Assembly (NCBI RefSeq): GCF_025175675.1
Contig: NZ_JANIOA010000003.1
Coordinates: forward strand, 62,001 to 126,000
From: Sedimenticola hydrogenitrophicus
GTDB taxonomy: Bacteria > Pseudomonadota > Gammaproteobacteria > Chromatiales > Chromatiaceae
Direction: 5' to 3'
DNA: 64,000 bases
Each line of letters opens with the position of its first letter. Positions within the stretch are counted from its first letter, which is position 1. The position numbers and the translations under genes are program-made. Of this stretch, positions 30,676 through 56,981 are shown in pieces. A model generated the notes under the pieces. That model did no database searches, had not been told where the DNA came from, and was given only the letters and a program-made list of their open reading frames with translations.

Positions 30676-30881
30676 TCACTACTCACGGGGTGATTGGTCT
30701 GCCTTGTTGGCCAATCTTGATGGCGCCTCGAATCCGGTCCCTTTTTCAGATTCAAGCCTGCCCTTGTTTGAGCGAAGCGAGTTTGGGCAGGCGCTGAAAA
30801 TGGGGCCGGATTCGAGGGGATAAGCCATCGTGTGAGGCCGGCAAGGCAGACCAATCACTTACCGACCGGATAAGTAGTTAC
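30676..30881. mobile_element. Repeat family R4, copy 2, inserted in the 3' end of tonB with a 9-bp target duplication
   Basis: The element starts TCACTACTCACGGGGTGATT and ends CCGGATAAGTAGTTAC. GCGACAGCG stands immediately outside on both sides (30667-30675 and 30882-30890), a clear target-site duplication. The core matches the copies at 22171-22374 and 51834-52030, including the central GCCTGCCC/GGGCAGGC hairpin. It encodes no transposase. Its right end supplies the last six codons and stop of tonB. Confidence 0.9.
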
Positions 30882-31563
30882 GCGACAGCGAATATTTCAG
30901 GTTGAAACCCAGCCGCACCGGCAGCGCCAGGGCCGCCGGCAACTCGGGCAGCGGCAGCGCCTGCTGCAGGGCGCGCCGGGTCGCCTTGTTGAGCAGGTTG
31001 TGCTCGCCCTCAACCCGCAGGTCATCGATCCGGCCATTCGCCGACAGGGTGAAACTCACCTGGACCAGCCCCTCGATACCGCGCTTTCGCGCCGGCAGCG
31101 GATAGTGTTTGTATTTCTCGATATGCCGCAACAGCCGGGCGATGTAGTGCTCCCGCAACGCGGACGGATCGGGCCGGTCCGCGACGGTCGGTGCCGGCGG
31201 CGCAGACCGGGCGGGCGGCGCCGCGTCCGCTGGGACACTCTCGACCAGCCGTGCCCGTTCCGCTGGCGGCTCCGGCTCCGCTTCAGGTTTGGGCTTCGGC
31301 TTCGGTTTTGGCTTCGGCTTCGGCTCGGGTTTCGGCTCGGGTTTCGGTTCTGGTTCTGGCTCGGGCTCGGGCTCGGCCGCCACCGGTTCCACAGCCGACT
31401 CCGCTGAGGCGAAACGGATTCTGACCGTGGTGGGCTCGGGCAGCGCGGAGTTCTCCGGGGCGCTGATCACCTGGCTCCGCCAGATATCCCCAAACACCAG
31501 GAAATGGATCAGCAGGGAACCGGCAATAGCCAGCAGCCGCCAGTTGATATCCCCCGCGATCAC
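30859..31563 (-). CDS. tonB: TonB energy transducer
   Basis: This 234-residue protein starts at GTG (31561-31563) and overlaps the exbD stop by 4 nt. It has one N-terminal membrane anchor (WRLLAIAGSLLIHFLVF, about 8-24), a long Pro-rich EPEP/KPEP/KPKP spacer (about 65-100) that spans the periplasm, and a TonB C-terminal domain (YPLPARKRGIEGLVQVSFTL, about 150-228) that binds TonB boxes of receptors. With ExbBD it transmits proton-motive force. The last residues NYLSGR come from the end of an inserted repeat; without it the frame would read ...KYSLSL and stop. Confidence 0.92.
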   Translation of the reverse strand: MIAGDINWRLLAIAGSLLIHFLVFGDIWRSQVISAPENSALPEPTTVRIRFASAESAVEPVAAEPEPEPEPEPKPEPKPEPKPKPKPKPKPKPEAEPEPPAERARLVESVPADAAPPARSAPPAPTVADRPDPSALREHYIARLLRHIEKYKHYPLPARKRGIEGLVQVSFTLSANGRIDDLRVEGEHNLLNKATRRALQQALPLPELPAALALPVRLGFNLKYSLSRNYLSGR

Positions 31564-31961
31564 GGCTTCTCGGTCTGGATATCCAGGGCCTCCGCGCCGG
31601 CCAGGCGGGCGGCATCGATAATCTGTACCGCCTGGCCGAAATCCGCCTGCCGGTCCCCCTTCAGCCGCACAAACTGCTTCCCGAGCGAGTGCAGCGCACC
31701 GCGCAGTACCTCCGCAAGCTCCGCCATGTCGGTGGCGATTCCGTCCACCAGCAGCCGCCCGTCCGGCGCCAGGGTCACCGTGACGTAGCGCTCATCCGGC
31801 AGCGGATCGCTGCTGCTCGCTTGCGGCAAGCGGATATCGATTCGCTCCTCCTCGATGAAGTGGGCGGTCAGCATGAAGAACACCAGCAGCAGGAACACGA
31901 TATCAATCAGCGGGGTCAGGTTGAGCACACCGCTGGAGTGGCGCCGCGGCTCATACGCCAT
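31560..31961 (-). CDS. exbD: ExbD/TolR-family biopolymer transport protein
   Basis: Starting at the ATG at 31959-31961 (MAYEPRRHSSGVLNLTPLID) gives 133 residues and an 11-nt overlap with exbB. One membrane segment (LIDIVFLLLVFFMLTAHF) carries the conserved Asp needed for proton movement, followed by a periplasmic ExbD domain (FVRLKGDRQADFGQAVQIID). It works with ExbB and TonB in the inner membrane. An upstream start (32006) is possible but would run deep into exbB. Confidence 0.93.
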   Translation of the reverse strand: MAYEPRRHSSGVLNLTPLIDIVFLLLVFFMLTAHFIEEERIDIRLPQASSSDPLPDERYVTVTLAPDGRLLVDGIATDMAELAEVLRGALHSLGKQFVRLKGDRQADFGQAVQIIDAARLAGAEALDIQTEKP

Positions 31962-32625
31962 CGGTGATGCCTTCCCAGCGATGCGGCTGTTCGCTGCTGG
32001 TTGCACCCGGCAACGCCTCGCCGCGGCGCTCCAGCAGCAGCGCGATGACCCGCTCCATGGACTGGTTGCGTCGCTCCACCGCGCCTTCCAGGAAATGCAG
32101 CAGGATCAGCAGCGGTATCGCCACCGCCAGCCCCACACCGGTGGTGATCATCGCCTCCCAGATGCCCCCGGCCAGCGCCTGGGCATCCACCTTGCCGCCC
32201 GCCTGCTCGATCACCATGAAGGCCTTGATCATGCCGGTGATGGTGCCGAGCAGTCCGAGCAGAGGCGCCGTGTTGCCGAGGATGCCCAGGGTGCGCAGGC
32301 CGAACTCCATCCGCTGCAACTCCTGGCCGCGTACGCGATTGCCGACGCTGCGCAGGTCGTCCACACCCTGGGCGTCGGCGAGCACGACCGCCTCGACGAT
32401 CCGCGACTCGGGCCCTTGTCCGGCATCCGCGGCCACCCGATTCGCCACCAGTTCCGCCGGCTGTTCGAGCAGCCGTGGCAGCCGCTCCCGCAGCGGCCGC
32501 GGCAGGCCGCGCTGGCGCAGGAACAGCAGTGTCCGTTCCAGCACGATGGCCAGTCCAACGGCCGAGTAGGCGACCAGCACCCAGACCACCGGCCCGCCCC
32601 GGGTCAACAGTTCACTCATATTCAT
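31951..32625 (-). CDS. exbB: ExbB/TolQ-family proton channel protein
   Basis: The ATG at 32623-32625 (MNMSELLTRGGPVVWVLVA) overlaps the preceding gene's stop by 4 nt and gives 224 residues. Three membrane helices are visible: PVVWVLVAYSAVGLAIVLER, TAPLLGLLGTITGMIKAF, and EAMITTGVGLAVAIPLLILL, the last two with the ExbB/TolQ signature. It forms the pentameric channel that powers TonB. The acidic/Arg-rich cytosolic loop is of normal size. Confidence 0.93.
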   Translation of the reverse strand: MNMSELLTRGGPVVWVLVAYSAVGLAIVLERTLLFLRQRGLPRPLRERLPRLLEQPAELVANRVAADAGQGPESRIVEAVVLADAQGVDDLRSVGNRVRGQELQRMEFGLRTLGILGNTAPLLGLLGTITGMIKAFMVIEQAGGKVDAQALAGGIWEAMITTGVGLAVAIPLLILLHFLEGAVERRNQSMERVIALLLERRGEALPGATSSEQPHRWEGITDGV

Positions 32626-33374
32626 GGTGCGATCCACCCCAATGCCGTGCCCATGCCCATCAGCAACAGCAGGCCGACGCTGGCATGCTCCAGCGCGCTG
32701 CCCCAGCGATTCATGTGCTGTGTCAGCTGTTGACTGAAATGCGCCACCCCGAGGGCAAAGACCAGGGAGGGCACCAGTACCGCGCCGCTGCCGAAACCGA
32801 AGCCGAGCAGCAGGCCGGCCGACGCGCTGCCGCTGGTCGCCGCCGCCAGGATGACGGTAGTCAGCGGCGCGCAGGGATTGAGCGCCATGCCCGTCCCCAT
32901 GAGGAACAGCCCGCCGGGGAGCAACGCCTGTGCCTGTCCGGATGCCGCCCCGAGGGACGCCCCGGTTGCCACCCCGTTTGTCATCCGGATTTCCGGCGGT
33001 GCGACCCGGGTCGGGCCGGCGCTCGCCGGGTGGGCGACGCACCCTCCCCCGCGGCGCCGGCGGCGCCACAACAGGGAGAGCGCCACCGCCACGGTGGCCG
33101 CCCCCAGCAGCCAGCGCACCCAGGGGGCGGCGATCCACTCCTGCACGATCAGGCCGAGCAGGCCGGAGCCGCCCCCCAGCAGGGTGTAGCCGCTCAGGCG
33201 CCCGGCGGTGAACGGCAGCAGGATACGCCAGGCGTTACGCGGCCCGCTGCCGGTGGCCACGAACACCGGCCCCAGGTAGGGCAGACAGGCGATATTGCAC
33301 GGCCCGGCACCGAACCCCAGGCCGAGCAGCAGCACGGCGCCGAAGCTGAGCACCACCGGCTCCAGGGGCATCAT
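32622..33374 (-). CDS. DsbD/CcdA-like transmembrane protein (TauE/SafE-annotated family)
   Basis: This 250-residue protein has about six membrane helices in two halves. Each half has a cysteine-proline motif in a helix: GPCNIACLPYLGPV (about residue 25) and ALNPCAPLTTVILAA (about 165). These resemble the PC motifs by which DsbD/CcdA/ScsB move thiol electrons across the membrane. Families of this type are often labelled sulfite exporter TauE/SafE, but the cysteines favour electron or metal handling. It overlaps both neighbours by 4 nt (polyferredoxin upstream, exbB downstream), so it belongs to the TonB operon. Substrate unknown. Confidence 0.8.
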   Translation of the reverse strand: MMPLEPVVLSFGAVLLLGLGFGAGPCNIACLPYLGPVFVATGSGPRNAWRILLPFTAGRLSGYTLLGGGSGLLGLIVQEWIAAPWVRWLLGAATVAVALSLLWRRRRRGGGCVAHPASAGPTRVAPPEIRMTNGVATGASLGAASGQAQALLPGGLFLMGTGMALNPCAPLTTVILAAATSGSASAGLLLGFGFGSGAVLVPSLVFALGVAHFSQQLTQHMNRWGSALEHASVGLLLLMGMGTALGWIAP

Positions 33375-34423
33375 GAGCCGCTCTCCCGGCGCGGTTTTTT
33401 CGCCGCCAGCAGGGCGCGCAGGTTGCCCTTCTCCCAGGCACCCTGCGCCTTCTTGCGCTGCTTGAAGTAGTGCGAATCGGCCCGGAACAGCGGTAACCCG
33501 GCGTACTTGAGTTGCAACACCCCCCGGTCAGGGCAAAACTCCACGCAACGACCGCACAGGGTGCAATCCTCGAAGGTGACATCCCGCTGCTCCATCTCGG
33601 TGTGGATCTCGCGGATATCCATCGGACAGGCCTTGGCGCAGAACCCGCATTTGCCGCAGCGTGGCGAGGCCTGCTTGACCAGCCGTAGCAGGCCGAGCTT
33701 CCTGAACACGGCATGCAGCGCCAGCATGGGGCAAACACGGCAAAACGGCTGGCGCAACGTCAGCGCCAGGGCCACCATCAGCCCGAACAGGAAGTCCGCG
33801 ATCAGCGAGAGGATGAGGGTCGTGGTGCTCGCCGTATCCACCACCAGCTCGCTGCTGTCGCCGTTGGCCAGGGTGGTGAGGAGACGGCTGGGGCAGATCC
33901 TGCAGTAGGGGTCCCCCAGGTCGTGATTGAGGTAGCCCAGGCCGGTCAGTAGCGGAAAACCGAACACCAGCAGACCGAGGATCGCCCATTTCACCGGTCG
34001 CATGCGCTGCACCACGCCGGGTGCCAGCGACTCGCTGCGCCGCAGCCCCAGTTTCTGTCCGGCGATCTGCAGCAGCTCCTGAAAGGTGCCGAGCGGACAG
34101 ATCCAGCCGCAGAACGCCTTGTTCAGCACCACGAAAAAGAGCAGGAAGGTACCCAGGGTGATCAGCGTCGGCAGCAGCCCCTGGAGAATCTCCCCGCCCG
34201 CACTGATCACCGGCCCGAGGCGGTGGTCCATCTGGTGCTGAAACGGGATCAGGGCGCAGATATCGGCACCGTTCATGTCGAAGGCGCAGCTCAGGGCCGG
34301 CAGCGCGCCGCTGAGTTTGTCGGCCAGGTAGAAGGTGCCCAGGGTGCTGCCATAGACCAGCAGCAGGAAGGCGCCGAGCTGGACCAGCTTGCGAATCACC
34401 GAGACATTTTTCAGCGGGTTCAT
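33371..34423 (-). CDS. Membrane polyferredoxin (NapH/CcoG-like 4Fe-4S protein)
   Basis: This 350-residue protein has about four to five membrane helices. Helix-adjacent cysteine motifs are CGWICPLGTFQELL, CRICPSRLLTT and CRVCPMLALH. Two classical 4Fe-4S motifs lie near the C-terminus: CGKCGFCAKACPMD and CTLCGRCVEFCPDRG. The pattern is that of NapH/NosR/CcoG-type inner-membrane ferredoxins that pass quinol or cytosolic electrons toward the periplasm. It overlaps the genes on either side by 4 nt (ATGA). Its place in a TonB operon suggests reductive handling of the imported metal or complex, which is inference. Confidence 0.85.
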   Translation of the reverse strand: MNPLKNVSVIRKLVQLGAFLLLVYGSTLGTFYLADKLSGALPALSCAFDMNGADICALIPFQHQMDHRLGPVISAGGEILQGLLPTLITLGTFLLFFVVLNKAFCGWICPLGTFQELLQIAGQKLGLRRSESLAPGVVQRMRPVKWAILGLLVFGFPLLTGLGYLNHDLGDPYCRICPSRLLTTLANGDSSELVVDTASTTTLILSLIADFLFGLMVALALTLRQPFCRVCPMLALHAVFRKLGLLRLVKQASPRCGKCGFCAKACPMDIREIHTEMEQRDVTFEDCTLCGRCVEFCPDRGVLQLKYAGLPLFRADSHYFKQRKKAQGAWEKGNLRALLAAKKPRRESGS

Positions 34424-35262: not shown

Positions 35263-37434
35263 TCAAAAGCTGTAGGTGTAGGTAAGCATGGCGGCGCGTG
35301 GCGCCCCGGCGTAATAGGTCTTGGTGCCGCTGGTGTCCTTCTTCACCTCGGTGGCGTAACGCTTGTCGAACAGGTTGTCCACGTTCAGCGAGACGCTGTG
35401 GGGGCTCGATGCGTAGCCCAGCATCAGGCTGGTGAGGAAGTCGTAGCCGTCATACTTCTCCGTGTTGGCGTTGTCCATGTAATAACTCCCCCAGCTGTCG
35501 GCCTGCAGACGCGCCCGGAAGCCCGATGGGTGGTCGTAGTCCAGACTCAGGCTGAACTGGTGATTGGGCACGAACGGGGTCTGGTTGCCCGAACGGTCCA
35601 CCGCGGTCAGGGTGGCGCCGCTGCGCACCAGCTCCTCGAACTCCTCGAACCGGTAGTCGCTGTAGGCGTAGTTGGCGCCCAGCCAGAGATGCCGGCCCAA
35701 GGCCAGCTTGCCGCTCAGTTCGAGGCCCTTTTTCAGCGTCGCTCCCGCATTCTGGAACTCGCTCTCGCCGCTGGGCTGGAGCACCGAGACGATCTCGTCG
35801 CTGACGCGGGTTTGGTAGAGCGACAGATCGAGGCTCCACGCCCGGGCCCGCGCCTTGAGTCCCACCTCCAGGTTGCGGGCGTTGGCCGCGTCCAGGTCCG
35901 GGTTGCTCTGGATCTCCGATTCCGACGGCACCTGGCCGGACTGCGCCAGCATGCCGTAGAGGCTGAAGGTGTCGTTCAGGGCATAGCTGAGCCCGAGCTT
36001 GGGGGAGAACAGGTCAAAGGTGGTGTCGGTCCGGGTGGTCACCGGAGCCGCAAAGGTGTCGTAGCTCCTGGTGCCCCAGTCGTATTCTCCATAGGCAATC
36101 TCTTCGATATCGAAATTCATCCGGTCGAAGCGGAAACCGGCATCGATGGTCAGCCGATCGTTCGGTCGCAGCGTCTCCTGCAGGAACAGGCCGTACAGGG
36201 TGTTGGCGGCGTCCTCGGTGGAGAGCAGGTCACCCTTGCGGTCGGAGAGGGTGCGGACGATCCGGTTGACCGGCGGCGTGGGTCCGGGGGGATCAAACAG
36301 GGTCGTGGTGAGATCCGCGTATTGGTACTTCTCCGCCCCGTCGGTCTTGTCCAGGCGCGCGGTCACGCCGCCCACCAGGGTACTGTCGCCCCACAGCCGG
36401 TGGCTGTAGGCGAATTCCAGGTCGCTGCCGAACACGTTGGTGCCGGGGTTGTCGTTGATCGCGCCGGTGACCGGATGGTAGTGGTCCCAGCGGTTGAAAT
36501 AGACGCGCGGTTTGAACACCAGGTCGCCGAACGCCTGCTCAAAGCGACTGTTGAAGAACCAGATGGTGGAGTAGCGCCCGCTGTGCTGCCACTGGCTGCT
36601 GGTATCGCGCTGCTTGCCGCTGTCGCGGTACGCCTCGAACTCGCTCTCGGTCAACGAGGCGGGCAGTTGCAGGTCCGCCCGGGAGTAGCTCAGCTCGGTC
36701 TCCAGCGTCGCGCCGCCATCCAGCAGCAGACCGTGCTTCAGGCTCAACTGCTGGGTATCGAATTCGTTCCACTCGCGCCAGCTGTTTTCGGCGGTCCGAT
36801 GGGAGCCGGTCAGCAGCACGCTGTTGCTGTCGTTCAGCTCCTGGCTGTAGCGGAAATGCAGGTTCTCCTGCCCCGCCTCGCCGACGCCGATCTTGACCCG
36901 GTTGCCGTCCACATCGAATACCGACTTGGAGATGATCTGGATGGTGCCGCCGGCCGAACCGCTGCCATACAGCGACCCGGGCCCCTTGGTAATCTCGATG
37001 CGCTCGATATCCTGGGTGTCGATGAAATCGAAGCGCGAAAAACTGTCGGGGTCGGTCATCGGCACGCCGTCGCGCAGGACCATGATCTCCCGCACGCCGT
37101 AATTGGCCTTCTGTCCGGCACCGCGGATGATCAGGCGCGCGTCATAGCCACCGTTTTTCGATTCGATCAGCACCCCGGGGGTGCCTTGGATCGCATCCTT
37201 GATGTTCTGCATCTGTTCGGCATCGATGCGCCTGGTGTCGATCACGCTGATCGCCGCCGGCACCTCCCGGGTGCCGCGGGCAATCCGCGAGGCGGTGACA
37301 CTGATGGTGTCGACCGACTCGGCGGACACCGGCTCCGCCTCTACGGCATCCTCCGCCAGCAGAGCCGGGCTGATAATCAATAGGGAAGTGGCGAGAGTTG
37401 TTCTGATGACACTGTTATATTTATTAAGATGCAT
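35263..37434 (-). CDS. TonB-dependent outer-membrane receptor
   Basis: The ATG at 37432-37434 opens a signal peptide (MHLNKYNSVIRTTLATSLL ... LLAEDA) and a 723-residue receptor. VDTISVTASRIARG at the N-terminus looks like a TonB box region. The plug domain contains PGVLIESKNGGYDARLIIRG and ERIEITKGPGSLYGSGSAGG. The 22-strand barrel ends with the terminal aromatic YTYSF. It brings a scarce ligand (metal chelate, cobalamin or similar) across the outer membrane. It heads the operon that also holds exbB, exbD and tonB. No Fur box or riboswitch was recognised upstream, so the ligand is unknown. Confidence 0.93.
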   Translation of the reverse strand: MHLNKYNSVIRTTLATSLLIISPALLAEDAVEAEPVSAESVDTISVTASRIARGTREVPAAISVIDTRRIDAEQMQNIKDAIQGTPGVLIESKNGGYDARLIIRGAGQKANYGVREIMVLRDGVPMTDPDSFSRFDFIDTQDIERIEITKGPGSLYGSGSAGGTIQIISKSVFDVDGNRVKIGVGEAGQENLHFRYSQELNDSNSVLLTGSHRTAENSWREWNEFDTQQLSLKHGLLLDGGATLETELSYSRADLQLPASLTESEFEAYRDSGKQRDTSSQWQHSGRYSTIWFFNSRFEQAFGDLVFKPRVYFNRWDHYHPVTGAINDNPGTNVFGSDLEFAYSHRLWGDSTLVGGVTARLDKTDGAEKYQYADLTTTLFDPPGPTPPVNRIVRTLSDRKGDLLSTEDAANTLYGLFLQETLRPNDRLTIDAGFRFDRMNFDIEEIAYGEYDWGTRSYDTFAAPVTTRTDTTFDLFSPKLGLSYALNDTFSLYGMLAQSGQVPSESEIQSNPDLDAANARNLEVGLKARARAWSLDLSLYQTRVSDEIVSVLQPSGESEFQNAGATLKKGLELSGKLALGRHLWLGANYAYSDYRFEEFEELVRSGATLTAVDRSGNQTPFVPNHQFSLSLDYDHPSGFRARLQADSWGSYYMDNANTEKYDGYDFLTSLMLGYASSPHSVSLNVDNLFDKRYATEVKKDTSGTKTYYAGAPRAAMLTYTYSF

Positions 37435-37512
37435 AACTGCTTTGCAACCTGTCAGTCTGGACAAAAGGAGAGGCCGGCAAACGTGTTGTCCCCGGCAGCG
37501 CCGCTCCCGGCC

Positions 37513-37560
37513 ATTGCATCCCCGGCTCCGTAGACGGTACTTCCCTGTACCACTCCTCAT
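37513..37560 (-). repeat. Repeat family R1 copy, reverse orientation
   Basis: Read on the minus strand: ATGAGGAGTGGTACAGGGAA, GTACCGTCTACGGAGCCG, GGGATGCAATG. It lies 79 nt upstream of the receptor start, in the leader of the TonB operon. The rest of the 37435-38200 gap holds a short TCCA/TGGA palindrome near 37580, an AT-rich patch at 37725-37742 that may contain the operon promoter, and the MITE at 37962-38127. Confidence 0.7.
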
Positions 37561-37961: not shown

Positions 37962-38127
37962 TTAGGGCTCGCGCAAGAATAATTTCGCAGTACCGAGGGC
38001 GTAACTGGGCCACGCTGGCAAGGCACGCTTTGCAGGCAATGGCTGTTCCCTTGCCAAAAAGCGTAACGCCGCCAGCGGGGTCCAGTGGCGACCGAATACC
38101 GAAACTTATTTTTGCGCGAGCCCTTAA
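37962..38127. mobile_element. 166-bp MITE-like element with TTAGGGCTCGCGC ends
   Basis: TTAGGGCTCGCGCAAGAATA (37962-37981) is mirrored by CTTATTTTTGCGCGAGCCCT followed by TAA (38105-38127). The body carries inner paired segments (GCAAGGCACGC / CCTTGCC) but no frame for a transposase. GGGCTC at the tips recalls ISL3-type ends, which is only a resemblance. It lies 73 nt before the dual binding-protein gene. Confidence 0.75.
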
Positions 38128-38200
38128 CGAGGCCGGCATGGATTGCCGCTATTTCGGCAAGTGACGCGCACTTGAATCCATGCGACAAAAGGTATCGTTC

Positions 38201-40630
38201 ATGACTACCCGCCATTTCCGGTTATCCGTTTGGCTGCGCTTTCTGGGGATGTGGCTGGGGATGTGGCTGGGAACCTGGCTGGCCGGCTCAATGGTCTCGG
38301 CCGCCACCCCACCCGCCGATTTCACCGGTACCGAGATCACTGTCGGGGTACAAGACGTTTCGGCCATCGGTGCTCCGGCAAAGGCCCATGCCCTTACTTG
38401 GCAGGCGCGCACCGGCGGGCGGGCGTGGGTGATACAGAAGCCCTTCGGCAAGCTGTTTGAAGCCTACCTGGAATCCCTGACCGCCACGGAGCCGGTGTAT
38501 GACGTGATCCTCTACGCCCCGGCCTGGGCGGGCGATTTCGCACCCTATCTCAGGGAGCTGCCGCGCAGCATCTCCGGGCACGAGAGCCTCGACGACATCC
38601 ACCCCACCTACCGCGAACGGCTGATGACCTGGAACGACAGGTGGATCGCTGTGACCATCGATGGCGACCTGTTCAGCGGCTATTACCGCAAGGATCTGTT
38701 TGCCGATCCCGCCCACCGGGCACAGTTCCGCGCCCGCTACGGCTACGAGCTGGCGCCGCCGGACACCTGGGGGCAGTACCGGGACATCGCCGAGTTTTTC
38801 ACCGGGCGCCAGGACGCCGACGGCAGACCGCTGTACGGCACCGCCGAGGCCTTCGCCAGCGGCGGCCAGCAGTTCTGGAATGTGTTCAGCCGGGCCTCGG
38901 CCTATACCAACCCGCCGACCTTCCCCGGCGCCCAGTTCTTCGACCCGGACACCATGCAGGCGCAGATCGACAGCCCCGGCTGGGTGCGGGCGGTACGGGA
39001 GTATCTTGAGATCCGCACCTTCTGTCCGCCGGACAGCCGCGACCAGGGCATCGTCGAGGCGCGCCGGGCATTCCTCTCCGGGCAGACGGCGATGATCCTG
39101 GACTGGGGCGATACCGCCCAATTGGCCAACGACCCCGAACTCTCCCGCATCAGGGGGCAGGTGGGATATTTCGTGCTGCCCGGTACCCGGCAGGTCTGGA
39201 ACGGCCGGGACTGGCGCTGGGAGCGGACGGACGAGGTCCACAAGGCCCCCTTCCTCGCCTTCGGCGGCTGGGTGGCCAGCGTGCCGGCCAACAGCCGCCA
39301 CCCCGAAGCGGCCTGGGACTACATCCTGTGGCTGGGCAGTGCGGAGAACTCGCTGCATGACGTGGTCACCGCCGGCACCGGCATCAACCCCTACCGGCTG
39401 ACCCACTTCAGCGAGATCGACACCTGGAACCGGGCCTTTCCCCAGGGCGCGGCTTCTGAATACCTGGAGGTGCTGCGCACCAGCCTGGACTCGCCTCATG
39501 TTGCATCGGACCTGCGTCTGCCCGGCTTCCATCGGTACACGGCGGCACTCGACGCGGGGCTGGCGCAACTGCTGCGCGGCGAGGTCGAGGTCGAGGTCGA
39601 GGTCGAGGTCGAGGCGACGTTGCGCCGGGTCGCCGAGGCGTGGGAAGGCATAACCGACAGCCTGGGCCGCAAGCGCCAACTCGCCCTCTACCGTACCGCC
39701 ATGGGGCTGGACCCGCAGCCGGCCGGCCCCCGCCCTGGTGGCGGCCGGGGCAAACAGCAGCTGGTCATCGGTTTCTCCCAGGCCACCACCACCGAGCCGT
39801 GGCGGCGGCTGTTCAATAAGGAGCTGCGCGAGGAGGCGGCGCGCCACCCGGAGATCAAGCTACTGGTGCGCGACGGCATGGACCGGGCCGACAAGCAGGC
39901 CGCCGACGTGATCGAACTGATCGACCAGCGGGTGGACGCCCTCCTCATCTCACCGAAGGTGGCCGAGGCCCTGACACCGGCGGTGAACCGCGCCTTCAAT
40001 GCCGGTATCCCGGTGTTCGTGCTGGATCGTGACGTCTCCAGCGACCGCTACACCCAGTTCATTGGTGGTGACAACCTGGCGATCGGCCGGGCAGCGGGCC
40101 GCTACGCGGTGCGGCTGCTCGGCGGCACCGGAAATGCCAAGGGGCAGTTGGTGGAGATCTGGGGCGGCATGGCCTCCACTCCGGCCCACGAGCGGCACCA
40201 GGGATTCATGGAGATCGTCGGACCCGAACCCGGCATCCGCATCCTCAACCCTCCTCAGGATGGCGACTGGAAACAGGACCTGGGCTACGACCTCATGGCC
40301 GAGGCGCTGACCCACTATCCGAAGATCGATCTGGTCTACGCCCACAACGATCCCATGGCCCACGGCGCCCACCTGGCGGCACGCGAGGTGGGGCGTGAAC
40401 AGGAGATTTTCTTTCTTGGCATCGACGGCATCCCGGCGGAGGGGGTGCGCTGGGTGAAAGAGGGCAAGCTGACCGCCACCTTCCTCTACAAGCCCCCGGG
40501 CGAAGAGGGGGTGCGGCAGGCACTGCGCTACCTGGGCGGCGAGGCGGTGCCAGCCCGGCTCACCCTGCCGACCCTGACCATCGACCGCGGCAACGCGAAC
40601 CAGATCCTGCAGCGCCACGGACTGGATTAG
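38201..40630 (+). CDS. Fusion of two periplasmic binding proteins (SBP_bac_1-like + LacI/ribose-binding-like)
   Basis: I start at the ATG at 38201, 8 nt after AAAGG; an ATG at 38180 lacks a ribosome site. The 809 residues begin with a signal peptide whose core holds three GMWL/GTWL units. Domain 1 (about 45-455) is like sugar-ABC solute-binding proteins (YFVLPGTRQVWNG, AFGGWVASVPANSRHPEAAWDYILWL). A linker of five Glu-Val pairs follows (461-472). Domain 2 (about 517-800) is a type I binding fold (LVIGFSQATTTEPWRRLFNK, VDALLISPKVAEALTPAVN, VYAHNDPMAHGAHLA, FFLGIDGIPAEGVRWVKEG). No ABC permease is nearby. The membrane GGDEF-EAL gene starts 11 nt downstream, so the pair is probably a sensor of two ligands. 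Confidence 0.85.
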   Translation: MTTRHFRLSVWLRFLGMWLGMWLGTWLAGSMVSAATPPADFTGTEITVGVQDVSAIGAPAKAHALTWQARTGGRAWVIQKPFGKLFEAYLESLTATEPVYDVILYAPAWAGDFAPYLRELPRSISGHESLDDIHPTYRERLMTWNDRWIAVTIDGDLFSGYYRKDLFADPAHRAQFRARYGYELAPPDTWGQYRDIAEFFTGRQDADGRPLYGTAEAFASGGQQFWNVFSRASAYTNPPTFPGAQFFDPDTMQAQIDSPGWVRAVREYLEIRTFCPPDSRDQGIVEARRAFLSGQTAMILDWGDTAQLANDPELSRIRGQVGYFVLPGTRQVWNGRDWRWERTDEVHKAPFLAFGGWVASVPANSRHPEAAWDYILWLGSAENSLHDVVTAGTGINPYRLTHFSEIDTWNRAFPQGAASEYLEVLRTSLDSPHVASDLRLPGFHRYTAALDAGLAQLLRGEVEVEVEVEVEATLRRVAEAWEGITDSLGRKRQLALYRTAMGLDPQPAGPRPGGGRGKQQLVIGFSQATTTEPWRRLFNKELREEAARHPEIKLLVRDGMDRADKQAADVIELIDQRVDALLISPKVAEALTPAVNRAFNAGIPVFVLDRDVSSDRYTQFIGGDNLAIGRAAGRYAVRLLGGTGNAKGQLVEIWGGMASTPAHERHQGFMEIVGPEPGIRILNPPQDGDWKQDLGYDLMAEALTHYPKIDLVYAHNDPMAHGAHLAAREVGREQEIFFLGIDGIPAEGVRWVKEGKLTATFLYKPPGEEGVRQALRYLGGEAVPARLTLPTLTIDRGNANQILQRHGLD
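39581..39616 (+). repeat. Hexanucleotide microsatellite (GAGGTC)5-GAGGCG
   Basis: Five perfect GAGGTC units and one variant encode (Glu-Val)5-Glu-Ala between the two binding domains of the protein at 38201-40630. Because the unit is six bases, copy-number change would alter linker length without shifting frame. Confidence 0.9.
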
Positions 40631-40641
40631 GGGGATAGGCG

Positions 40642-43600
40642 ATGCGACTGCTGGATCGCCTGCTGAATACACGCACCCTCGGCGGCGCCGCCCTCAAGCG
40701 CCGCCTGGGCATCGCCTTCATCGGCGTGGCTACCATCCTGGCGGCCGCGGTGGGCACCGCGCTCTACACCCACGGTCGGATGGCCGGATCGGTACAGCGC
40801 ACCAGCGGCGAACTGCTTCCCGAGCTGCTGGCAACCCTGCGCCTGTCCGAACGCAGCGCCCAGCTGACGGCGGCGGCCCCGCTGCTGAGTGGCACCACCA
40901 GCGGGGAGGAGCTGGCCGGCATCGACCGCCACCTGCGACAACTGCTGGTGGACCTGGAGCAACAGCTGAACCGGCTTAGCGCAGGCACCCGGGAATCGGT
41001 TACCGGCCGCATACGCGACCAGGTGCAACTGATGCGCCAGGCCCTGCTGGAGCTGACCGCGGCCCATGCCGAGCGGATCGAGCTGCGACTGCGGCAACAG
41101 GGGGAACTGGTACGGCTGCAGCGGGCGCACAGCGAGCTGATCGACACCGTGAGCCCGGTGGTGTACGGCGTCAGTTCCCTGAACCAGCTGTTCGCGCGGC
41201 GCTTCGAACGCCGCTTCCAGGCCAGCCTCAGCCGCCTGCTGGAGCGGGAGCAGCCGCTGATCCAGGGGCTGATCGAGCTCATCCCCCTGACCACCGGCGA
41301 CGGCGCCCCGCCCGGGCGCCGGGAGGCGTTGCGCCGGTTACTTGAGCGGCTGCACCCGCTGCTTGGCGAAGAGTGGCGACAGTTGAGCGAAACCGGTCTG
41401 GCGCTCCTGCAGCGGGACGACAGCCTGCCCGCGGAATGGCAGCAGCTGCACCTTCTGGCCGAAAACGCCCTCACAGCGACGCAGGAGGCGCATGCCGAGG
41501 CGTTGCAGGACATCGCCGTGGAACTCAGCGGCTCCCCCGCGCGGCTGGTGGAGAACACCACCCGAGAACTGGGCGTGGCGATCGACATCAAGTCGGAGGG
41601 CAACCTGCTGTTCGCCCTGCTGAGCGCGGTAAAGGATGTGACGGCGGTAAACGAACTGGTGATTCTGGAGGAGCGCTACAACCGCTCCCTGGAGACCTTC
41701 CAGAATGCCACCCGAGCGTTCAGCCATATCCCCCTGGCGCAACGCAATCCGGTGCTGGCGGACAACGTGCAACGTATCGCCGGCTACCTGCCCCAAGCCA
41801 GGGAAAGCGACCAGAACCCGTTCCGCCTGCGCCACCGGGAGCTGGAGCTGGAACGGCGTATCAGCCAGCTGCTGAACACCCAGCGCGAACTGACCGCGCG
41901 CCTGACCGGGCTGACCCAGGAGCTGGTGGAGCGCATGCAGGGCGAGACCGGCCAGCTGTCGCGCGAGGTGGAGCGCAACCGCACCACCAGCAGCTGGATC
42001 CTGTACTCTGTCGGCCTGGTGGGCCTGCTGCTGATCAAGCTGATCGCCCTGATCACCATCCAGGCGCTGCAGCGGCGTGAACAGGCGTTGCGCCAGGCGG
42101 CGATCGTGTTCGAAAACACCAACGAGGGTATCCTGATCACCGACGACGCCGCCAACATCCAGGCGGTCAATCCCGCCTTCAGCGAGATCAGCGGCTACAA
42201 GCCGGACGAGGTAATCGGCCGGAACCCGCGCATGTTCAAGGCCGACCACCAGTCACCCACGGTGTACGAGCACATGTGGCAGAGTCTCAAAGAGAGCGGC
42301 CATTGGCAGGGCGAGGTGTTCAACCAGCGCAAGGATGGCGAGCCCTATCCAGAGTGGCTCACCATCAGCAGCGTGAAAAACGAGGCCGGGCGGGTCAGCC
42401 ACTATGTCGGTGTGTTCTCCGACATCAGCGCCATCAAGGAGACCCAGGCGCGCATCTACCACCTGGCGCACCACGACCCGCTCACCGACCTGCCCAACCG
42501 CATGATGCTCAACGACCGGCTCGCTCATGCCATGGAGCGGGCACAACGCGAGGCGCATCGCATCGCCGTGTTGTTCCTCGATCTGGACCGTTTCAAGAAC
42601 ATCAACGACACCCTCGGCCACGGTGTCGGTGACGAGGTGTTGCGCAAGGTCGCGGAGCGGCTGGCGCAGAGCGTGCGCGCGCAGGATACGGTTGCCCGGC
42701 TGGGCGGCGACGAGTTCATGGTGATAATGGAAGGGGTGCACCATTTGCAGGAGGTGAGCCTGGTGGCGCAGAAGCTGTTGGAGGTGCTGGCCCGGGAGAT
42801 CGTCATCGAAAAGCGTCGCTTCTTCCTCAGTGCCAGTATCGGCATCAGCCTCTACCCGGACGACGGCAACAGTGTCGACGAGCTGATCAAGAACGCCGAC
42901 ACCGCCATGTACCGCGCCAAGGAGCACGGCAGGAATGGCTTCCACTTCTACACCTCGGAGATGACCGCCACCGCCATCGAGCACTACGCCCTGGAGAACA
43001 GCCTGCGCCAGGGCTTGGAGCGTCAGGAGTTCGAGCTGCACTACCAGCCCCAGTGTGATCTCCTGAGCGGACGCATCACCGGCCTGGAGGCACTGCTGCG
43101 CTGGACCCACCCCGACTGGGGAACGGTCGGCCCGGACCGCTTCATCCCCATCGCCGAGGATGCGGGACTCATTCTCCCCCTCGGCGAGTGGGTCCTGCGC
43201 ACCGCCTGCAGACAGGCGCGTACCTGGCTCGATGCCGGCCTGCTGGACGGCCGCGTGGCGGTCAACCTGTCCGGTCAGCAGATCACCCGCGGCGATCTGG
43301 AACAGGTGGTTACCCGGGTCCTGGCAGAAACCGGCCTGCCGGCCGACCACCTGGAACTGGAGGTGACCGAGGGTTTCATCATGCATCAGCCGGAACAGAC
43401 CGTACGCATGCTCGACAACCTGCGCGCCATGGGCGTCAGCCTGGCGATTGACGATTTCGGCACCGGCCACTCCTCCCTCAGTTATCTGAAGCGACTGCCG
43501 ATCCACCTGCTGAAGATCGACCGCTCCTTCGTGCGCGACCTGGCAGTGGATCCCAACGACGAGGCGATCGCGCGGGCCATCATCGCCATGGGACAAGCCC

Positions 43601-43767
43601 TCGGCCTGCGCGTCATTGCCGAGGGCGTCGAAGAACAGCGTCAGGCCGACATCCTGACCGAGGCCGGCTGCGATCAGGTCCAGGGGTACTTCTACGCCCG
43701 CCCCGTGCCGGCGGAGCAGATCCCGGCCCTGCTGGCGGAAAAATACCTGGGGCGCGAATACACATAG
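40642..43767 (+). CDS. Membrane sensor with PAS, GGDEF and EAL domains (bifunctional c-di-GMP enzyme candidate)
   Basis: The 1041 residues have a membrane helix at about 23-42 (LGIAFIGVATILAAAVGTAL) and a long, mostly helical periplasmic region (about 45-445), similar in layout to TorS-type sensors. A second helix lies at about 450-472 (WILYSVGLVGLLLIKLIALI), then PAS (about 485-600), GGDEF with intact GGDEF at 688-692, and EAL with intact EAL at 816-818 plus DDFGTG. Both enzyme sites look active, so it may make or break c-di-GMP depending on signal. It follows the dual binding-protein gene by 11 nt; a ligand-loaded binding protein docking on the periplasmic domain, as TorT does on TorS, is my inference. 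Confidence 0.92.
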   Translation: MRLLDRLLNTRTLGGAALKRRLGIAFIGVATILAAAVGTALYTHGRMAGSVQRTSGELLPELLATLRLSERSAQLTAAAPLLSGTTSGEELAGIDRHLRQLLVDLEQQLNRLSAGTRESVTGRIRDQVQLMRQALLELTAAHAERIELRLRQQGELVRLQRAHSELIDTVSPVVYGVSSLNQLFARRFERRFQASLSRLLEREQPLIQGLIELIPLTTGDGAPPGRREALRRLLERLHPLLGEEWRQLSETGLALLQRDDSLPAEWQQLHLLAENALTATQEAHAEALQDIAVELSGSPARLVENTTRELGVAIDIKSEGNLLFALLSAVKDVTAVNELVILEERYNRSLETFQNATRAFSHIPLAQRNPVLADNVQRIAGYLPQARESDQNPFRLRHRELELERRISQLLNTQRELTARLTGLTQELVERMQGETGQLSREVERNRTTSSWILYSVGLVGLLLIKLIALITIQALQRREQALRQAAIVFENTNEGILITDDAANIQAVNPAFSEISGYKPDEVIGRNPRMFKADHQSPTVYEHMWQSLKESGHWQGEVFNQRKDGEPYPEWLTISSVKNEAGRVSHYVGVFSDISAIKETQARIYHLAHHDPLTDLPNRMMLNDRLAHAMERAQREAHRIAVLFLDLDRFKNINDTLGHGVGDEVLRKVAERLAQSVRAQDTVARLGGDEFMVIMEGVHHLQEVSLVAQKLLEVLAREIVIEKRRFFLSASIGISLYPDDGNSVDELIKNADTAMYRAKEHGRNGFHFYTSEMTATAIEHYALENSLRQGLERQEFELHYQPQCDLLSGRITGLEALLRWTHPDWGTVGPDRFIPIAEDAGLILPLGEWVLRTACRQARTWLDAGLLDGRVAVNLSGQQITRGDLEQVVTRVLAETGLPADHLELEVTEGFIMHQPEQTVRMLDNLRAMGVSLAIDDFGTGHSSLSYLKRLPIHLLKIDRSFVRDLAVDPNDEAIARAIIAMGQALGLRVIAEGVEEQRQADILTEAGCDQVQGYFYARPVPAEQIPALLAEKYLGREYT

Positions 43768-43858: not shown

Positions 43859-43946
43859 CGTAGGTTGGGGTGAGGAACGAACCCCAACATCATCACGCAC
43901 ATCCATGAACCCCCGTTGGGGTTCGCAAGCTCACCCCAACCTACGA
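43859..43946. repeat. Repeat family R2 variant (GTAGGTTGGGGTGAG type)
   Basis: CGTAGGTTGGGGTGAG ... GAACCCCAAC is mirrored by GTTGGGGTTCGC ... CTCACCCCAACCTACG. The layout equals the other R2 elements, with GGGG replacing TGCGG, so it is a sequence variant with preserved pairing. It lies between the GGDEF-EAL and amidotransferase genes. Confidence 0.75.
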
Positions 43947-46555: not shown

Positions 46556-48310
46556 TCAAGCCGTGGCCGTGCTCTTCTCGAACGCTTCGCGATACTGGTT
46601 GATAAAGCGGATATCCTGCGAATAGGGGAATACGTCGGCGTGGATGCCGCGGCCGATCTCCTGCTGGCGTTCGCGCCAGTAGTGGGCGTCGAACAGCTCC
46701 GGGTGCAGCTCCAGCAGGGTCTTGCGGATCAGCGGACTGGCGCTGAGGAAGGTGAGGAACTCCTCGGGAAACACATCGGCCTCCCCCACCGAGTACCAGG
46801 GCTCACTGCTCATCTCGTCCTCGGGGGTGCGCGGTGGCGGGATCTGGCGGAAATTGCACTCGGTCATCTTGCAGATCTCGTCATAATCGTAAAACACCAC
46901 CTTGCCCTGGTGGGTGACGCCGAAGTTCTTGAACAGCAGGTCGCCGGGGAAGATATTGGCCGCCATCAGCTGCTTCACCGCCAGCCCCCAGTCGTCGAGC
47001 ATGTTGCGTACTGTCTCCGCTGATCCCTCCGCCAGGCAGATATCCAGCGGGGTCATGCGGTGCTCGATATAGAGGTGGTTGATGATCAGCTTGTCGCCGT
47101 CCCGCTCCAACTGGGACGGGATTGATGCCTCCAGCTCCGCCAGCAGCTCCGGGTCGATGCGATCCCGCGGAAAGGCGGTCTTGGAAAACTCCAGGGTATC
47201 CGCCATGCGCCCCACCCGGTCGTGCAGCTTGACCTGCAGGTAGCGCTGCTTCACCTGGGCGTGGGTAATGTTCTTCTGCGGCGCGAAGCGGTCGCGGATC
47301 ACCTTGAAGACGAACGGATAGGAGGGGAGCGTGAACACCATCATCACCAGTCCACGCACGCCCGGCGCTACGATAAAGCGGTCGTTGCTGTTGTTCAGAT
47401 GGCGCAGCAGGTCGCGGTAGAACTCGTTCTTCGCCTGCTTGTGGAAACCGATGCTCATGTAGAGCTCGGCGAGCGGCTTGTTGGGCATGATGCTCTGCAA
47501 AAAACTGACCGTGGCCGCCGGAATCGAGTTGTTGGCCATGAAATAGGCGCGGGCGAAGCTGAACAGCGCCTCCACCTCCTCGTGGCTGGTGAGCAGGCTG
47601 TCGACAAAGATGGTGCCGCGATAGTTCAGCAGCGGCAGCACCAGCGGCCGCACCCCCTCGCTGCTCACCACCCGGCCGATCAGGTAGGCCGCCTTGTTGC
47701 GATAGAACGGGGCCTCCAGTACGTCGATGCGCAGCCCGTCATCCGCCAACTGGCCGAAGGGGGAACGGGTGCGGAAGGCGTGGGCGACATGCTGGATATC
47801 GCGCTCCATATCCTGATAGGGGATGCGGAAATAGAAGCCGGAGAGGATCTCCCGCAGACAGGTCTCCAGGCCGCCGTCCTTGAGATGAAAGGACATGAAC
47901 ACCCGGTCGCGCCGGGTCAGTTCCTCCCGGTCCACCCCGGACTCGATAAAGATCTTGTCATTATCAAAATACTGGCGGGCGAACATCTTGCAGAAGACCG
48001 AGTTGTAGAAGGTCTCGGCCAGTTCCGGGCGCCGGTAGTTGACCAGGAACTGCTGATACTGGGTCTTCACCCGCTGCCACAGGGCATCATCCACCTGGGA
48101 GACATCGAAGGTGGAGCGCACCTTATCGATCGCCTCCTGCACCCGTCGGTCATAGAAACTGATCCGGTCCACCGAGGCCTGCCGGATCGCCTCCCAGTCA
48201 GCCTGCTCGTAACTCTGGCGCACTTGGCGGGTGATCTCCTGAAAAAAGGAGAAGTGGCGTTCGAAGCCGGTAAAAATGGTGCGGGCAAGCTGCTGTGCCA
48301 GATCTGTCAT
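46556..48310 (-). CDS. aceK: Isocitrate dehydrogenase kinase/phosphatase
   Basis: The 584 residues match AceK over the whole length: FYNSVFCKMFARQYFDND, GVRGLVMMVFTLPSYPFVFKVIRD, HLYIEHRMTPLDICLAEG and GVTHQGKVVFYDYDEICKMTEC. AceK phosphorylates and dephosphorylates isocitrate dehydrogenase and so sends isocitrate into the glyoxylate shunt. In E. coli it is the third gene of aceBAK; here it is divergent from aceB-aceA across a 408-nt gap, so its level can be set separately. No domain is missing. Confidence 0.96.
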   Translation of the reverse strand: MTDLAQQLARTIFTGFERHFSFFQEITRQVRQSYEQADWEAIRQASVDRISFYDRRVQEAIDKVRSTFDVSQVDDALWQRVKTQYQQFLVNYRRPELAETFYNSVFCKMFARQYFDNDKIFIESGVDREELTRRDRVFMSFHLKDGGLETCLREILSGFYFRIPYQDMERDIQHVAHAFRTRSPFGQLADDGLRIDVLEAPFYRNKAAYLIGRVVSSEGVRPLVLPLLNYRGTIFVDSLLTSHEEVEALFSFARAYFMANNSIPAATVSFLQSIMPNKPLAELYMSIGFHKQAKNEFYRDLLRHLNNSNDRFIVAPGVRGLVMMVFTLPSYPFVFKVIRDRFAPQKNITHAQVKQRYLQVKLHDRVGRMADTLEFSKTAFPRDRIDPELLAELEASIPSQLERDGDKLIINHLYIEHRMTPLDICLAEGSAETVRNMLDDWGLAVKQLMAANIFPGDLLFKNFGVTHQGKVVFYDYDEICKMTECNFRQIPPPRTPEDEMSSEPWYSVGEADVFPEEFLTFLSASPLIRKTLLELHPELFDAHYWRERQQEIGRGIHADVFPYSQDIRFINQYREAFEKSTATA

Positions 48311-48718
48311 GTACCCATACTCCTGGAAACGCGGTCTCGGATCAATTTGATATAAATATAGCTTTCAAATTCAATACATTAACTTATCAGCCCCCCGATC
48401 CATGAAAAAACCGCGCCGCCAGGGGTAGCGCCCCGACGCCCAACCTGCCCGGTCAAGCCCGACAGACTCTCGGGTAAATCACTCTATTGCCGATCTGAAA
48501 GAGAGATTGCATGGTGGTTACGGTTTTATTACTACCCTATTTTCTTCCGCATCGCAGCATAAAGAATTTCAATACAAACTATTAAAGTATTTATGGTTCT
48601 TAATAGTTCACAATTGCGTATGCTCTATGCCGTTCCAACCATCTATTTGCTTGTTATTTCTAAGGTTTTACCTGATTCCTTGGGTATTTCCCTAATAAGC
48701 ATCAGGGGAGATACCACC
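48311..48718. other. AT-rich divergent control region between aceK and aceB
   Basis: This stretch contains no gene that I can support. From about 48500 to 48690 it is clearly AT-rich compared with its surroundings and probably holds the aceB promoter. No convincing -35/-10 pair, IclR site or hairpin was identified. An open frame runs through it into aceB from 48593 but has no ribosome site. The last bases carry AGGGGAG 8 nt before the aceB ATG. Confidence 0.5.
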
Positions 48719-50350
<1,632 letters not shown>

Positions 50351-50446
50351 GACAACCGTATAGCCAAAACCGTTGGTCCCCTGCCACCCGGCGGGAGGAT
50401 TGAACGGAGGAGGTTCGATGAGAGCAATACTGAAGGAGATTGTGAT

Positions 50447-51757
<1,311 letters not shown>

Positions 51758-55589: not shown

Positions 55590-55750
55590 AAGGGCCTGGA
55601 AAGAAATAACGGTCACAGATTGCGCCGGATTTTCGTTTGCCTTCAAGGCACGGCAAGGCGCGCATAGTCGTTCTATGTAAGTCTTGCCGTAACGCCGAAG
55701 GCGGACGAAAAGACCAGCAAGATGGACCGTTATTTATTGACAGGCCCTAA
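55590..55750. mobile_element. 161-bp MITE with GGGCCTG terminal inverted repeats
   Basis: AAGGGCCTGGAAAGAAATAA then CGGTC (55590-55614) is mirrored by GACCGTTATTTATTGACAGG then CCCTAA (55725-55750), with 5 mismatches near the middle of the arms. Inner segments CGTTTGCCTTCAAGGCACGG and CCGTAACGCCGAAGGCGGAC also pair. A truncated copy is at 2213-2291. It ends 19 nt before the binding-protein ATG. Confidence 0.8.
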
Positions 55751-55769
55751 CCATAGAGAGGAGAAGCAG

Positions 55770-56981
55770 ATGAGCGATCAGAAAAAACCCGGCATCAGCC
55801 GGCGCGACATTATCAAGGGCGGCGCGGCGGCCGCCGGGCTGGTGACAGCCTCCAGCCTCATCCCCACCCGGTTTGCCATCGGCAACACCGCCAAGGTGAA
55901 GGTGGGCATCCTGCTGCCCTATACCGGCACCTACGCCAAGCTCGGCAGCAACATCAAGGACGCCCTGCAGTTGCGCATCAACGAGGCCGGCGGCAAGCTG
56001 GGCGGACGCGAGGTGGAGTATATCAATATCGACAGCGAGGCGGCGCCCCCCAAGGCCCCCGAGCTGACCAACAAGCTGCTGAAGAAGGAGCAGGTGGACT
56101 TCCTCATCGGGCCGGTTCACTCGGTGGTGGGCATGGCGATGGTCAAGCTGGCGCGCAACGCCGACGTGATCGCGGTGATCCCCAACGCCGGCGCCAATGG
56201 CCTGACCGGCTCGCTGTGCGCGCCCAACATCTTCCGCACCTCCTTCTCCAGCTACCAGCCCGGCTTCCCGGGCGGCACGGCGATGCTGGAGGACGGTCAC
56301 AAGAACGTGGTGCTGATGTACTGGAACTACGGCTTCGGCAAGGAGACCGCGGCGGCCTTCAAGGAGTCTTTCCTGGCCGGCGGCGGCAACATCGTCAAGG
56401 AGATCCCCACCCCCTTCCCCAAGGTGGAGTTCCAGGCCTACCTGACCGAGGTGGCGGCGCTGAAACCGGATGCGGTGTTCACCTTCTACGCCGGCGGCGG
56501 CGCGGTAAAATTCGTCAAGGACTACGCCGCGGCGGGCCTGCACAAGAGCATCCCGCTGTACGGGGCCGGCTTCCTCACCGAGGGGGTCACCGGCGCCCAG
56601 GGCGAGGCCGCCGAGGGTATCCGCACCACCCTGCACTATGCCGACACCCTGGATCTGCCGGCCAACATCCGCTTCCGCGAGGCGTTCCTCAAGACCACCG
56701 GCAACCAGGCGGACGTGTATGCGGTACAGGGCTATGACGCCGGCGATCTGCTGGTGCAGGGCATGGCCGCGGTGGAGGGCGATGTCCGCGCCAAGGCGGA
56801 GATGATCAAGGCGATGGAGAGCGCCACCATCGACAGCCCGCGCGGCAAGTTCACCTTCTCCAAGGCACACAACCCGATCCAGGACATCTACCTGCGGGAA
56901 GTGGTCAACGGCCAGAACCAGGTGATCCGTACCGTGCAGAAGGCGGTGGAGGACCCGGCCGAGGGGTGCAAGATGGGCTGA
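55770..56981 (+). CDS. Branched-chain-type ABC binding protein, Tat-exported
   Basis: The ATG at 55770 follows GAGAGGAG and gives 404 residues. The N-terminus has a twin-arginine signal (GISRRDIIKGGAAAAGLV), so it is exported folded. The type I binding fold follows: VKVGILLPYTGTYAKLGSNIKDALQLR, DFLIGPVHSVVGMAMV, FYAGGGAVKFVKDYAAAG. It belongs to the HAAT (Leu/Ile/Val) family whose members also bind aromatic acids such as benzoates. Next to a benzoate-type CoA ligase it likely captures an aromatic acid, which is inference. Confidence 0.9.
   Translation: MSDQKKPGISRRDIIKGGAAAAGLVTASSLIPTRFAIGNTAKVKVGILLPYTGTYAKLGSNIKDALQLRINEAGGKLGGREVEYINIDSEAAPPKAPELTNKLLKKEQVDFLIGPVHSVVGMAMVKLARNADVIAVIPNAGANGLTGSLCAPNIFRTSFSSYQPGFPGGTAMLEDGHKNVVLMYWNYGFGKETAAAFKESFLAGGGNIVKEIPTPFPKVEFQAYLTEVAALKPDAVFTFYAGGGAVKFVKDYAAAGLHKSIPLYGAGFLTEGVTGAQGEAAEGIRTTLHYADTLDLPANIRFREAFLKTTGNQADVYAVQGYDAGDLLVQGMAAVEGDVRAKAEMIKAMESATIDSPRGKFTFSKAHNPIQDIYLREVVNGQNQVIRTVQKAVEDPAEGCKMG

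Follow-up and report, generated by a model that had tools for sequence, protein, structure and literature searches.

A fused double solute-binding protein encoded beside a TorS-like sensor-GGDEF-EAL enzyme in Sedimenticola hydrogenitrophicus

We analyzed a stretch of 64,000 nucleotides from Sedimenticola hydrogenitrophicus (assembly GCF_025175675.1, contig NZ_JANIOA010000003.1, positions 62,001 to 126,000 of the forward strand), referred to here as the window. All positions are those of the window. Two genes on the plus strand are the subject of this work. The first (38201..40630) encodes a protein of 809 amino acids (P0001) in which two solute-binding proteins (SBPs) are fused; its open reading frame (ORF) has no internal stop. 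The second (40642..43767) encodes a membrane protein of 1041 amino acids (P0002) with a TorS-like sensor followed by PAS, GGDEF, and EAL domains. The stop of the fusion gene ends at 40630 and the enzyme begins with the ATG at 40642, which leaves 11 bases between them. An in-frame ATG is also present at 38180, upstream of the fusion start. The start at 38201 was preferred because AAAAGG precedes it. A first-pass annotation, made from the letters alone, had proposed that two binding-protein folds in one chain are coupled here to an enzyme of cyclic di-GMP (c-di-GMP).

The fusion chain carries a predicted export signal. It consists of a Sec-type signal peptide at residues ~1-35 (38201..38305), read by eye, where the structure model has a helix at residues 9-28 with a low predicted local distance difference test (pLDDT) score. 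The N half (residues ~41-501, 38321..39703) is an SBP of the CUT1/MalE type, assigned by Pfam, sequence matches, and Foldseek. The Pfam domain SBP_bac_1 lies at residues 67-383, with 44.4 bits against a cut-off of 26. A linker of about 20 residues, rich in proline and glycine, follows in the alignment (residues ~501-519, 39701..39757). Only 4 of its 19 positions are identical across the five fusions described below. The C half (residues ~520-809, 39758..40627) is a TorT/BT1754/RbsB-like SBP, with Peripla_BP_4 at residues 523-781 (151.2 bits, cut-off 35.1). The AlphaFold2 model of the fusion, built on an alignment of 30 rows, has a mean pLDDT of 91.2. Foldseek compared it with the PDB and found BT1754 (2x7x, E 1.3e-25, TM-score 0.90 by target length) and the SBP_bac_1-type structures 5iai, 4rya, and 6dtq (E 2.7e-22 to 5.3e-21, TM-score 0.77-0.88, the value for 5iai being 0.88). 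The Foldseek table has no query range, and these structures were assigned to the halves by sequence: 2x7x to residues 523-801 of the C half, the other three to the N half. In the model, both halves are complete two-lobe binding-protein folds. Aligned as a single sequence, the C half is 22.8% identical to E. coli TorT over 281 residues (E 9e-7). The NCBIfam TorT equivalog gave the fusion 28.1 bits, far under its cut-off of 310. The C half is best described as a distant TorT relative. A perfect tandem repeat of the 6-base unit CGAGGT (5.8 copies, 39580-39614) lies within the N half and encodes (VE)n. The other four fusions show a gap of at least six residues at this site, possibly a spot of variable length.

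The enzyme has two transmembrane helices in the hydropathy scan, TM1 (residues 22-40) and TM2 (453-471). Between them lies a periplasmic, all-helical, TorS-like sensor domain of about 410 residues (~41-452, 40762..41997), assigned by hydropathy, structure model, and profile. The PAS domain (residues ~490-596, 42109..42429), the GGDEF domain (609-765, 42466..42936), and the EAL domain (786-1021, 42997..43704) follow, all found by Pfam. The GGDEF domain has the I-site RAQD (RxxD) and the motif RLGGDEF. All seven EAL motifs (EALLRW, VNLS, LEVTE, DDFGTG, LKIDRSFV, AEGVE, and QGY) are present by motif search, and the EAL domain was also aligned. The I-site, GGDEF, and EAL motifs are read here in their generally known meaning. 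Both parts of the first-pass description hold: Pfam, AlphaFold2, and Foldseek agree on two binding-protein folds, neither half being anything other than an SBP, and coordinates, hydropathy, Pfam, and motifs agree on an enzyme 11 bases later, with a large periplasmic domain and intact GGDEF and EAL.

The sensor model is all-helical (pLDDT 83). Foldseek matches it in topology with the TorS structures 3o1i, 3o1j, and 3o1h (E 1.8e-5 to 5.5e-5, TM-score 0.71-0.73 by target length), with 3o1i at E 1.8e-5 and 0.73. A profile of eight sensors, in which the row of locus L065 ends at about residue 326 after a false transmembrane call, matches E. coli TorS at residues 4-150 with 49.6 bits; the remaining TorS has no significant alignment. 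The sensor thus appears TorS-like in sequence and in modelled fold, with stacked helical bundles. Since the sensor profile and fold match TorS and the C half aligns to TorT, we count TorT-TorS as a distant relative of part of the system, beyond analogy.

Searches of the family sample, the order, the class, and one other family gave full-length fusions in 3 of 146, 4 of 210, 2 of 369, and 1 of 24 genomes, respectively. These sets overlap, and the present genome is counted in the family, order, and class sets. Five intact fusions were obtained: our own and those of genomes G083 (locus L028), G119 (L029), G511 (L065), and G362 (L066). In all five, the next gene on the same strand encodes a TorS-like sensor-PAS-GGDEF-EAL protein, after a gap of 11-66 bases. 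The partner sensors are only 28-33% identical to our own, and the partner enzymes of L029 and L065 have an extra GAF domain. The GGDEF motif and I-site are kept in five of five partners. Likewise, the catalytic EAL residues are kept in all five by alignment; the exact-string search had missed some motifs in L028, L029, and L065, where the catalytic residues are present with adjoining substitutions. In G179 (L067), the fusion and enzyme genes lie side by side, both broken into short frames; they decayed together. At E 1e-40, no single stretch of any of 72,556 plasmid records matches as much as 80% of the fusion. The ORFs of the loci were chosen greedily by length, with possible errors where GC content is high. 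A longer ORF masks the SBP frame in L031, L045, L068, and L115, and the SBP of these loci is known from sequence matches only. L032 was omitted from the structure-prediction alignment A3, as a masked run was read as X.

An unfused form is present in G585 (L103). There, separate genes encode an N protein of 501 residues, 60% identical to our N half, and a C protein of 320 residues with 65% identity to our C half. The order is N-type SBP, C-type SBP (with a 4-bp overlap), TorS-like histidine kinase, and REC-GGDEF, so that by domain content a c-di-GMP output is reached by a different route than the built-in GGDEF-EAL. In the alignment, the linker of the fusion coincides with the position of the signal peptide in the separate second SBP. 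We searched 48 genomes from the order of G585, and at E 1e-45 no other one carries both halves. The trees (18 N rows and 24 C rows, selected from the fetched loci, with L031, L032, L035, L042, and L111 among those omitted) place the fused and split N halves in one clade (100/99). The C halves with a TorS-like partner also form one clade (100/99), beside SBPs of ATP-binding cassette (ABC) transporters. The forks within the clades are open, so the trees fit a single origin of the fusion as well as several.

Single-SBP systems related to each half are also found. We mapped ten loci with C-type SBPs 31-34% identical to the C half. In seven of them, a GGDEF-EAL membrane protein follows the SBP (L036-L039, L045-L047). 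A hybrid kinase adjoins in two (L040 and L041, the latter kinase per Pfam), and L043, outside the Pfam scan, resembles a transporter cluster. One of the ten, L037, belongs to our own genome: a C-type SBP gene (33% identical to the C half) precedes a membrane PAS-GGDEF-EAL gene. Its sensor of 287 residues has no significant match to the dual-SBP sensor profile. N-type SBPs 46-50% identical to the N half have a hybrid kinase beside or near them in L031-L033, L035, L071, and L072. In L031-L033 and L035, the kinase sensor matches the dual-SBP sensors at both ends, and about 125 middle residues are missing. A FruB-type EIIA-HPr-EI protein was confirmed in these four loci; PfkB and OprB were scanned in L032 alone. 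As an observation in its own right, the six N-type loci, with FruB-type phosphotransferase system (PTS) genes, are candidates for a fructose-sensing two-component system. Between the transmembrane helices, the dual-SBP sensors measure 409-434 residues, most single-SBP sensors 268-298, two others 160 and 166, and that of L104 343.

The residues of both halves are well kept. For the N half, 209 of 225 cells of the five fusions keep residues conserved at 90% or more in 13 unfused relatives. For the C half, it is 119 of 120 cells, with 14 unfused relatives. These kept residues suggest that both pockets are in use. In the sequence alignment, W534, D609, R610, R665, W690, N716, D742, and Y763 equal their BT1754 counterparts (8 of 8). 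By the contacts of E. coli RbsB, these eight positions presumably line a sugar pocket. The candidate pocket residues do not separate fructose from other sugars because ABC-type relatives carry the same motifs. The gene neighbourhoods disagree on which sugar is bound. The unfused ABC-type relatives of the N half in L107, L108, L135, and L136, and of the C half in L049, lie in clusters with RbsD/FucU mutarotase or fuconolactonase-like enzymes, with matches under the NCBIfam cut-offs. Among the closest C-type ABC proteins, that of L137 lies with threonate/erythronate genes, and no sugar enzymes are near that of L138. Fructose as ligand of both halves was suggested by the closeness of the C half to BT1754 and by the FruB-like PTS beside N-type sensors. 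It was not adopted: our own genome matches the FruB query in the EI part only (38-39%), and the ABC-type relatives lie in other kinds of clusters. L-fucose, hinted at by the fuconolactonase- and mutarotase-like neighbours, was dropped, every such match being below its NCBIfam cut-off.

With moderate confidence, we propose that the two genes encode a two-protein receptor resembling TorT-TorS and NspS-MbaA, with two tethered sugar-type SBPs as input and c-di-GMP as output. In the exported chain, a short linker would join two Venus-flytrap modules of sugar type. The C half, its pocket closed on a monosaccharide, would dock on the TorS-like helical sensor as TorT does on TorS. Tethered by the linker, the N half would bring a CUT1-type sugar binder to this receptor and with it a second input, probably through a contact of its own with the enlarged middle of the sensor. 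Occupancy would shift the sensor dimer and TM2, and through the PAS domain it would tip the GGDEF/EAL pair towards synthesis or breakdown of c-di-GMP, in the way that NspS acts on MbaA. The computed support consists of the two SBP folds, the kept residues, the adjacency, co-occurrence, and co-decay of the genes, the TorS-like fold, the intact motifs, and the unfused form; docking, ligand classes, binding by both pockets, and the direction of the switch are what we infer.

Several points weigh against this proposal. The Pfam TorS sensor family (PF21689) gave our enzyme 22.3 bits, below its cut-off of 27, and the related sensors of L029 (21.2) and L104 (26.9) are also under it; the same-sensor kinases of L030 (38.3 bits) and L103 (33.8 bits) are above. 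The match to the TorS fold is one of topology, with a root-mean-square deviation of about 10-11 Å, and the chemoreceptor McpZ (8f7n, E 6e-6) ranks above it. The counts of kept residues were made without a control, in five fusions that are related. None of the eight other same-genus genomes examined matches at E 1e-45, so the fusion system is patchy as well as rare. Besides, N is absent from L104 (G679), which has a C protein, a TorS-like hybrid kinase with a shorter sensor, and a GGDEF gene. L030 (G046) has a C protein and a TorS-like kinase, and N is not in the ~730 bases left on its contig. L131 (GGDEF-EAL) and L132 (hybrid kinase) carry a long TorS-like sensor with no adjacent SBP. These four loci indicate that the sensor family can do without the N half. 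Three of their sensors are long, too: 439 residues in L030, 425 in L131, and 415 in L132. An enlargement of the sensor to accommodate a second SBP does not fit these lengths and is kept as a bare possibility. The long sensors of L131 and L132 may have lost a partner or may sense directly.

The known systems place the proposal in context. NspS-MbaA of Vibrio cholerae, also in Sinorhizobium meliloti, is described as a periplasmic SBP that switches a membrane GGDEF-EAL enzyme (PMC8967002; PMC9993111), and the direction in which MbaA works depends on whether NspS is occupied (PMC8967002). Similarly, our SBP gene, whose product carries the export signal read by eye, adjoins that of a membrane enzyme with GGDEF and EAL, and the pairing is conserved in five of five intact fusions and one decayed pair, with the sensors of L131 and L132 standing without an adjacent SBP. 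However, NspS is single and of the polyamine type, whereas SBP_bac_1 and Peripla_BP_4, with sugar-type nearest structures, are fused here and face a TorS-like helical sensor; judged by Pfam and Foldseek, and not by alignment with NspS itself, the fusion does not look like an NspS orthologue. As in TorT-TorS of Escherichia coli, a Peripla_BP-type protein goes with an all-helical sensor, and both parts are detectably homologous. In contrast, TorT-TorS has one SBP, trimethylamine N-oxide as ligand, and a histidine-kinase output. Here, a second SBP is fused in front, the sensor exceeds most of the measured single-SBP sensors by ~120 residues, and the output is GGDEF-EAL; a kinase output is absent from our enzyme and present in the relatives L030, L103, and L104. 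A review reports a piston-like movement for TorS (PMC8534201). BT1754, the fructose sensor of Bacteroides thetaiotaomicron, binds monomeric fructose (PMC3404733). Among solved structures it stands closest to the C half, and in it also an SBP fold serves signalling. Nevertheless, that SBP sits alone in the kinase chain, and the output is transcription. ArtI-STM1987 of Salmonella has a binding protein required for ligand sensing by a membrane diguanylate cyclase (PMC8846402); it differs in having one, arginine-type SBP and a dCACHE sensor. The single-SBP pairs such as L037 share the C-type SBP and PAS-GGDEF-EAL layout with our system, with one SBP and a shorter sensor. In BvgS-type kinases, the two Venus-flytrap (VFT) domains belong to a single family and lie within the kinase chain. 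They are given in a review as "double VFT", with two such domains in one sensor chain (PMC8534201).

The remaining statements of the first-pass annotation can be judged from this comparison. Its analogy with TorT-TorS was fair, given the distant homology of both parts. The coupling to a c-di-GMP enzyme is strengthened by the five intact fusions, the co-decayed pair, and the unfused four-gene form; the genes do co-occur, yet the L131 and L132 sensors have no adjacent SBP. Its remark that no transporter lies nearby agrees with Pfam, which found no sugar ABC permease or ATPase among 20 other ORFs scanned, a subset of those in the window. Its proposal that one chain could report two ligands is a tentative reading, taken up below. 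It also knew of no described system with this architecture. Among the matches listed from the open-licence PubMed Central literature, judged by title and start of abstract, with subscription journals and bioRxiv outside the search, none deals with two SBPs fused in one chain as the input of a c-di-GMP enzyme. The annotation did overlook NspS-MbaA: an SBP with GGDEF-EAL (NspS-MbaA), an SBP with a cyclase (ArtI-STM1987), and a double VFT (BvgS) are already described, and single-SBP versions are frequent in the family, L037 included. An SBP-switched c-di-GMP receptor is a known kind. The variant seen here, with its fusion of two SBP families, enlarged TorS-like sensor, and split and fused forms, is absent from the literature matches listed and would be new.

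What the second SBP contributes can be read in several ways. Tentatively, one chain may dock at two places on the enlarged TorS-like sensor and give a joint answer, by coincidence or priority of two sugars, in c-di-GMP. The chain would have arisen by fusion of neighbouring SBP genes, both probably from sugar ABC transporters, and the sensor output would have been exchanged between kinase plus REC-GGDEF and the built-in GGDEF-EAL. It is unlikely that only one half senses, with the C half as TorT-like sensor and dock and the N half as structural extension, or the reverse, so that the chain would report one ligand. This would suit L030 and L104, where a TorS-like kinase has the C half as its sole SBP, the seven of ten loci in which a C-type SBP is the only one preceding a GGDEF-EAL protein, and L031-L033, L035, L071, and L072, where a hybrid kinase goes with just an N-type SBP. 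Nevertheless, both halves keep residues conserved in their unfused relatives, and the adjacent, overlapping, separate N and C genes of L103 are hard to square with a filler role. We also find it improbable that the two pockets take one sugar, or two forms or relatives of a monosaccharide, at different affinity, widening the range with no two-ligand logic. The mutarotase/fuconolactonase-like clusters around relatives of both halves (N: L107, L108, L135, L136; C: L049) speak for it, as do the FruB-like fructose-PTS genes adjoining N-type sensors (L031, L032, L033, L035) and the identity of the C half with BT1754 at the eight candidate pocket residues. On the other hand, the closest C-type ABC neighbourhoods differ (L137 and L138, as above), the mutarotase and fuconolactonase matches are under the NCBIfam cut-offs, and our genome has EI-like FruB matches only, with no EIIA-HPr part. 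Finally, chance neighbours, a fusion serving a transporter elsewhere and a GGDEF-EAL protein sensing alone, would suit the orphan sensors L131 and L132 and the ABC-transporter SBPs among the close relatives of both halves, but are very improbable in view of five of five fusions with a partner of the same kind and strand within 66 bases, despite sensors only 28-33% identical to our own, the co-decay in L067, and the TorS-like fold.

Networks of c-di-GMP contain many receptors whose signals are not known. In the proposed two-SBP receptor, the signals could be screened directly because two sugar-type SBP families with solved relatives appear to feed it. The series of split (L103), fused (five genomes), C-only (L030, L104), and no-adjacent-SBP (L131, L132) forms is a natural experiment on the recruitment, fusion, and loss of SBPs. 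It also bears on how one sensor can integrate two inputs. The L103 relative, with both halves as neighbouring genes, suggests a receptor that may be able to read two sugars at once.

The surroundings of the two genes were also inspected. The promoter scan gave no promoter-like site, and the terminator scan gave two terminator-like sites, both on the minus strand, against a shuffled mean of 3.7; neither scan is informative. A TonB-dependent receptor (35263-37560) lies next to the fusion on the opposite strand. Near it, at 30862-34423, are TonB- and ExbD-like genes, between which a 4Fe-4S protein and a DsbD-like protein are encoded; this may be a metal-uptake cluster. AceK, malate synthase, and isocitrate lyase lie side by side at 46556-51757, an ordinary glyoxylate-shunt cluster, and a Peripla_BP_6 protein is encoded at 55722-56981. 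Just upstream of the fusion gene (37964-38124) is an element of ~161 bases with inverted ends of 22 bases, resembling a miniature inverted-repeat transposable element. The genome has at least 40 copies, 92-100% identical (54 rows, of which 14 are the same places on the other strand; 40 of 137 candidates were scored). Downstream of the enzyme gene (43859-43945), a perfect inverted repeat of 16 bases, CGTAGGTTGGGGTGAG / CTCACCCCAACCTACG, whose arms are 55 bases apart, looks like a dispersed repeat.

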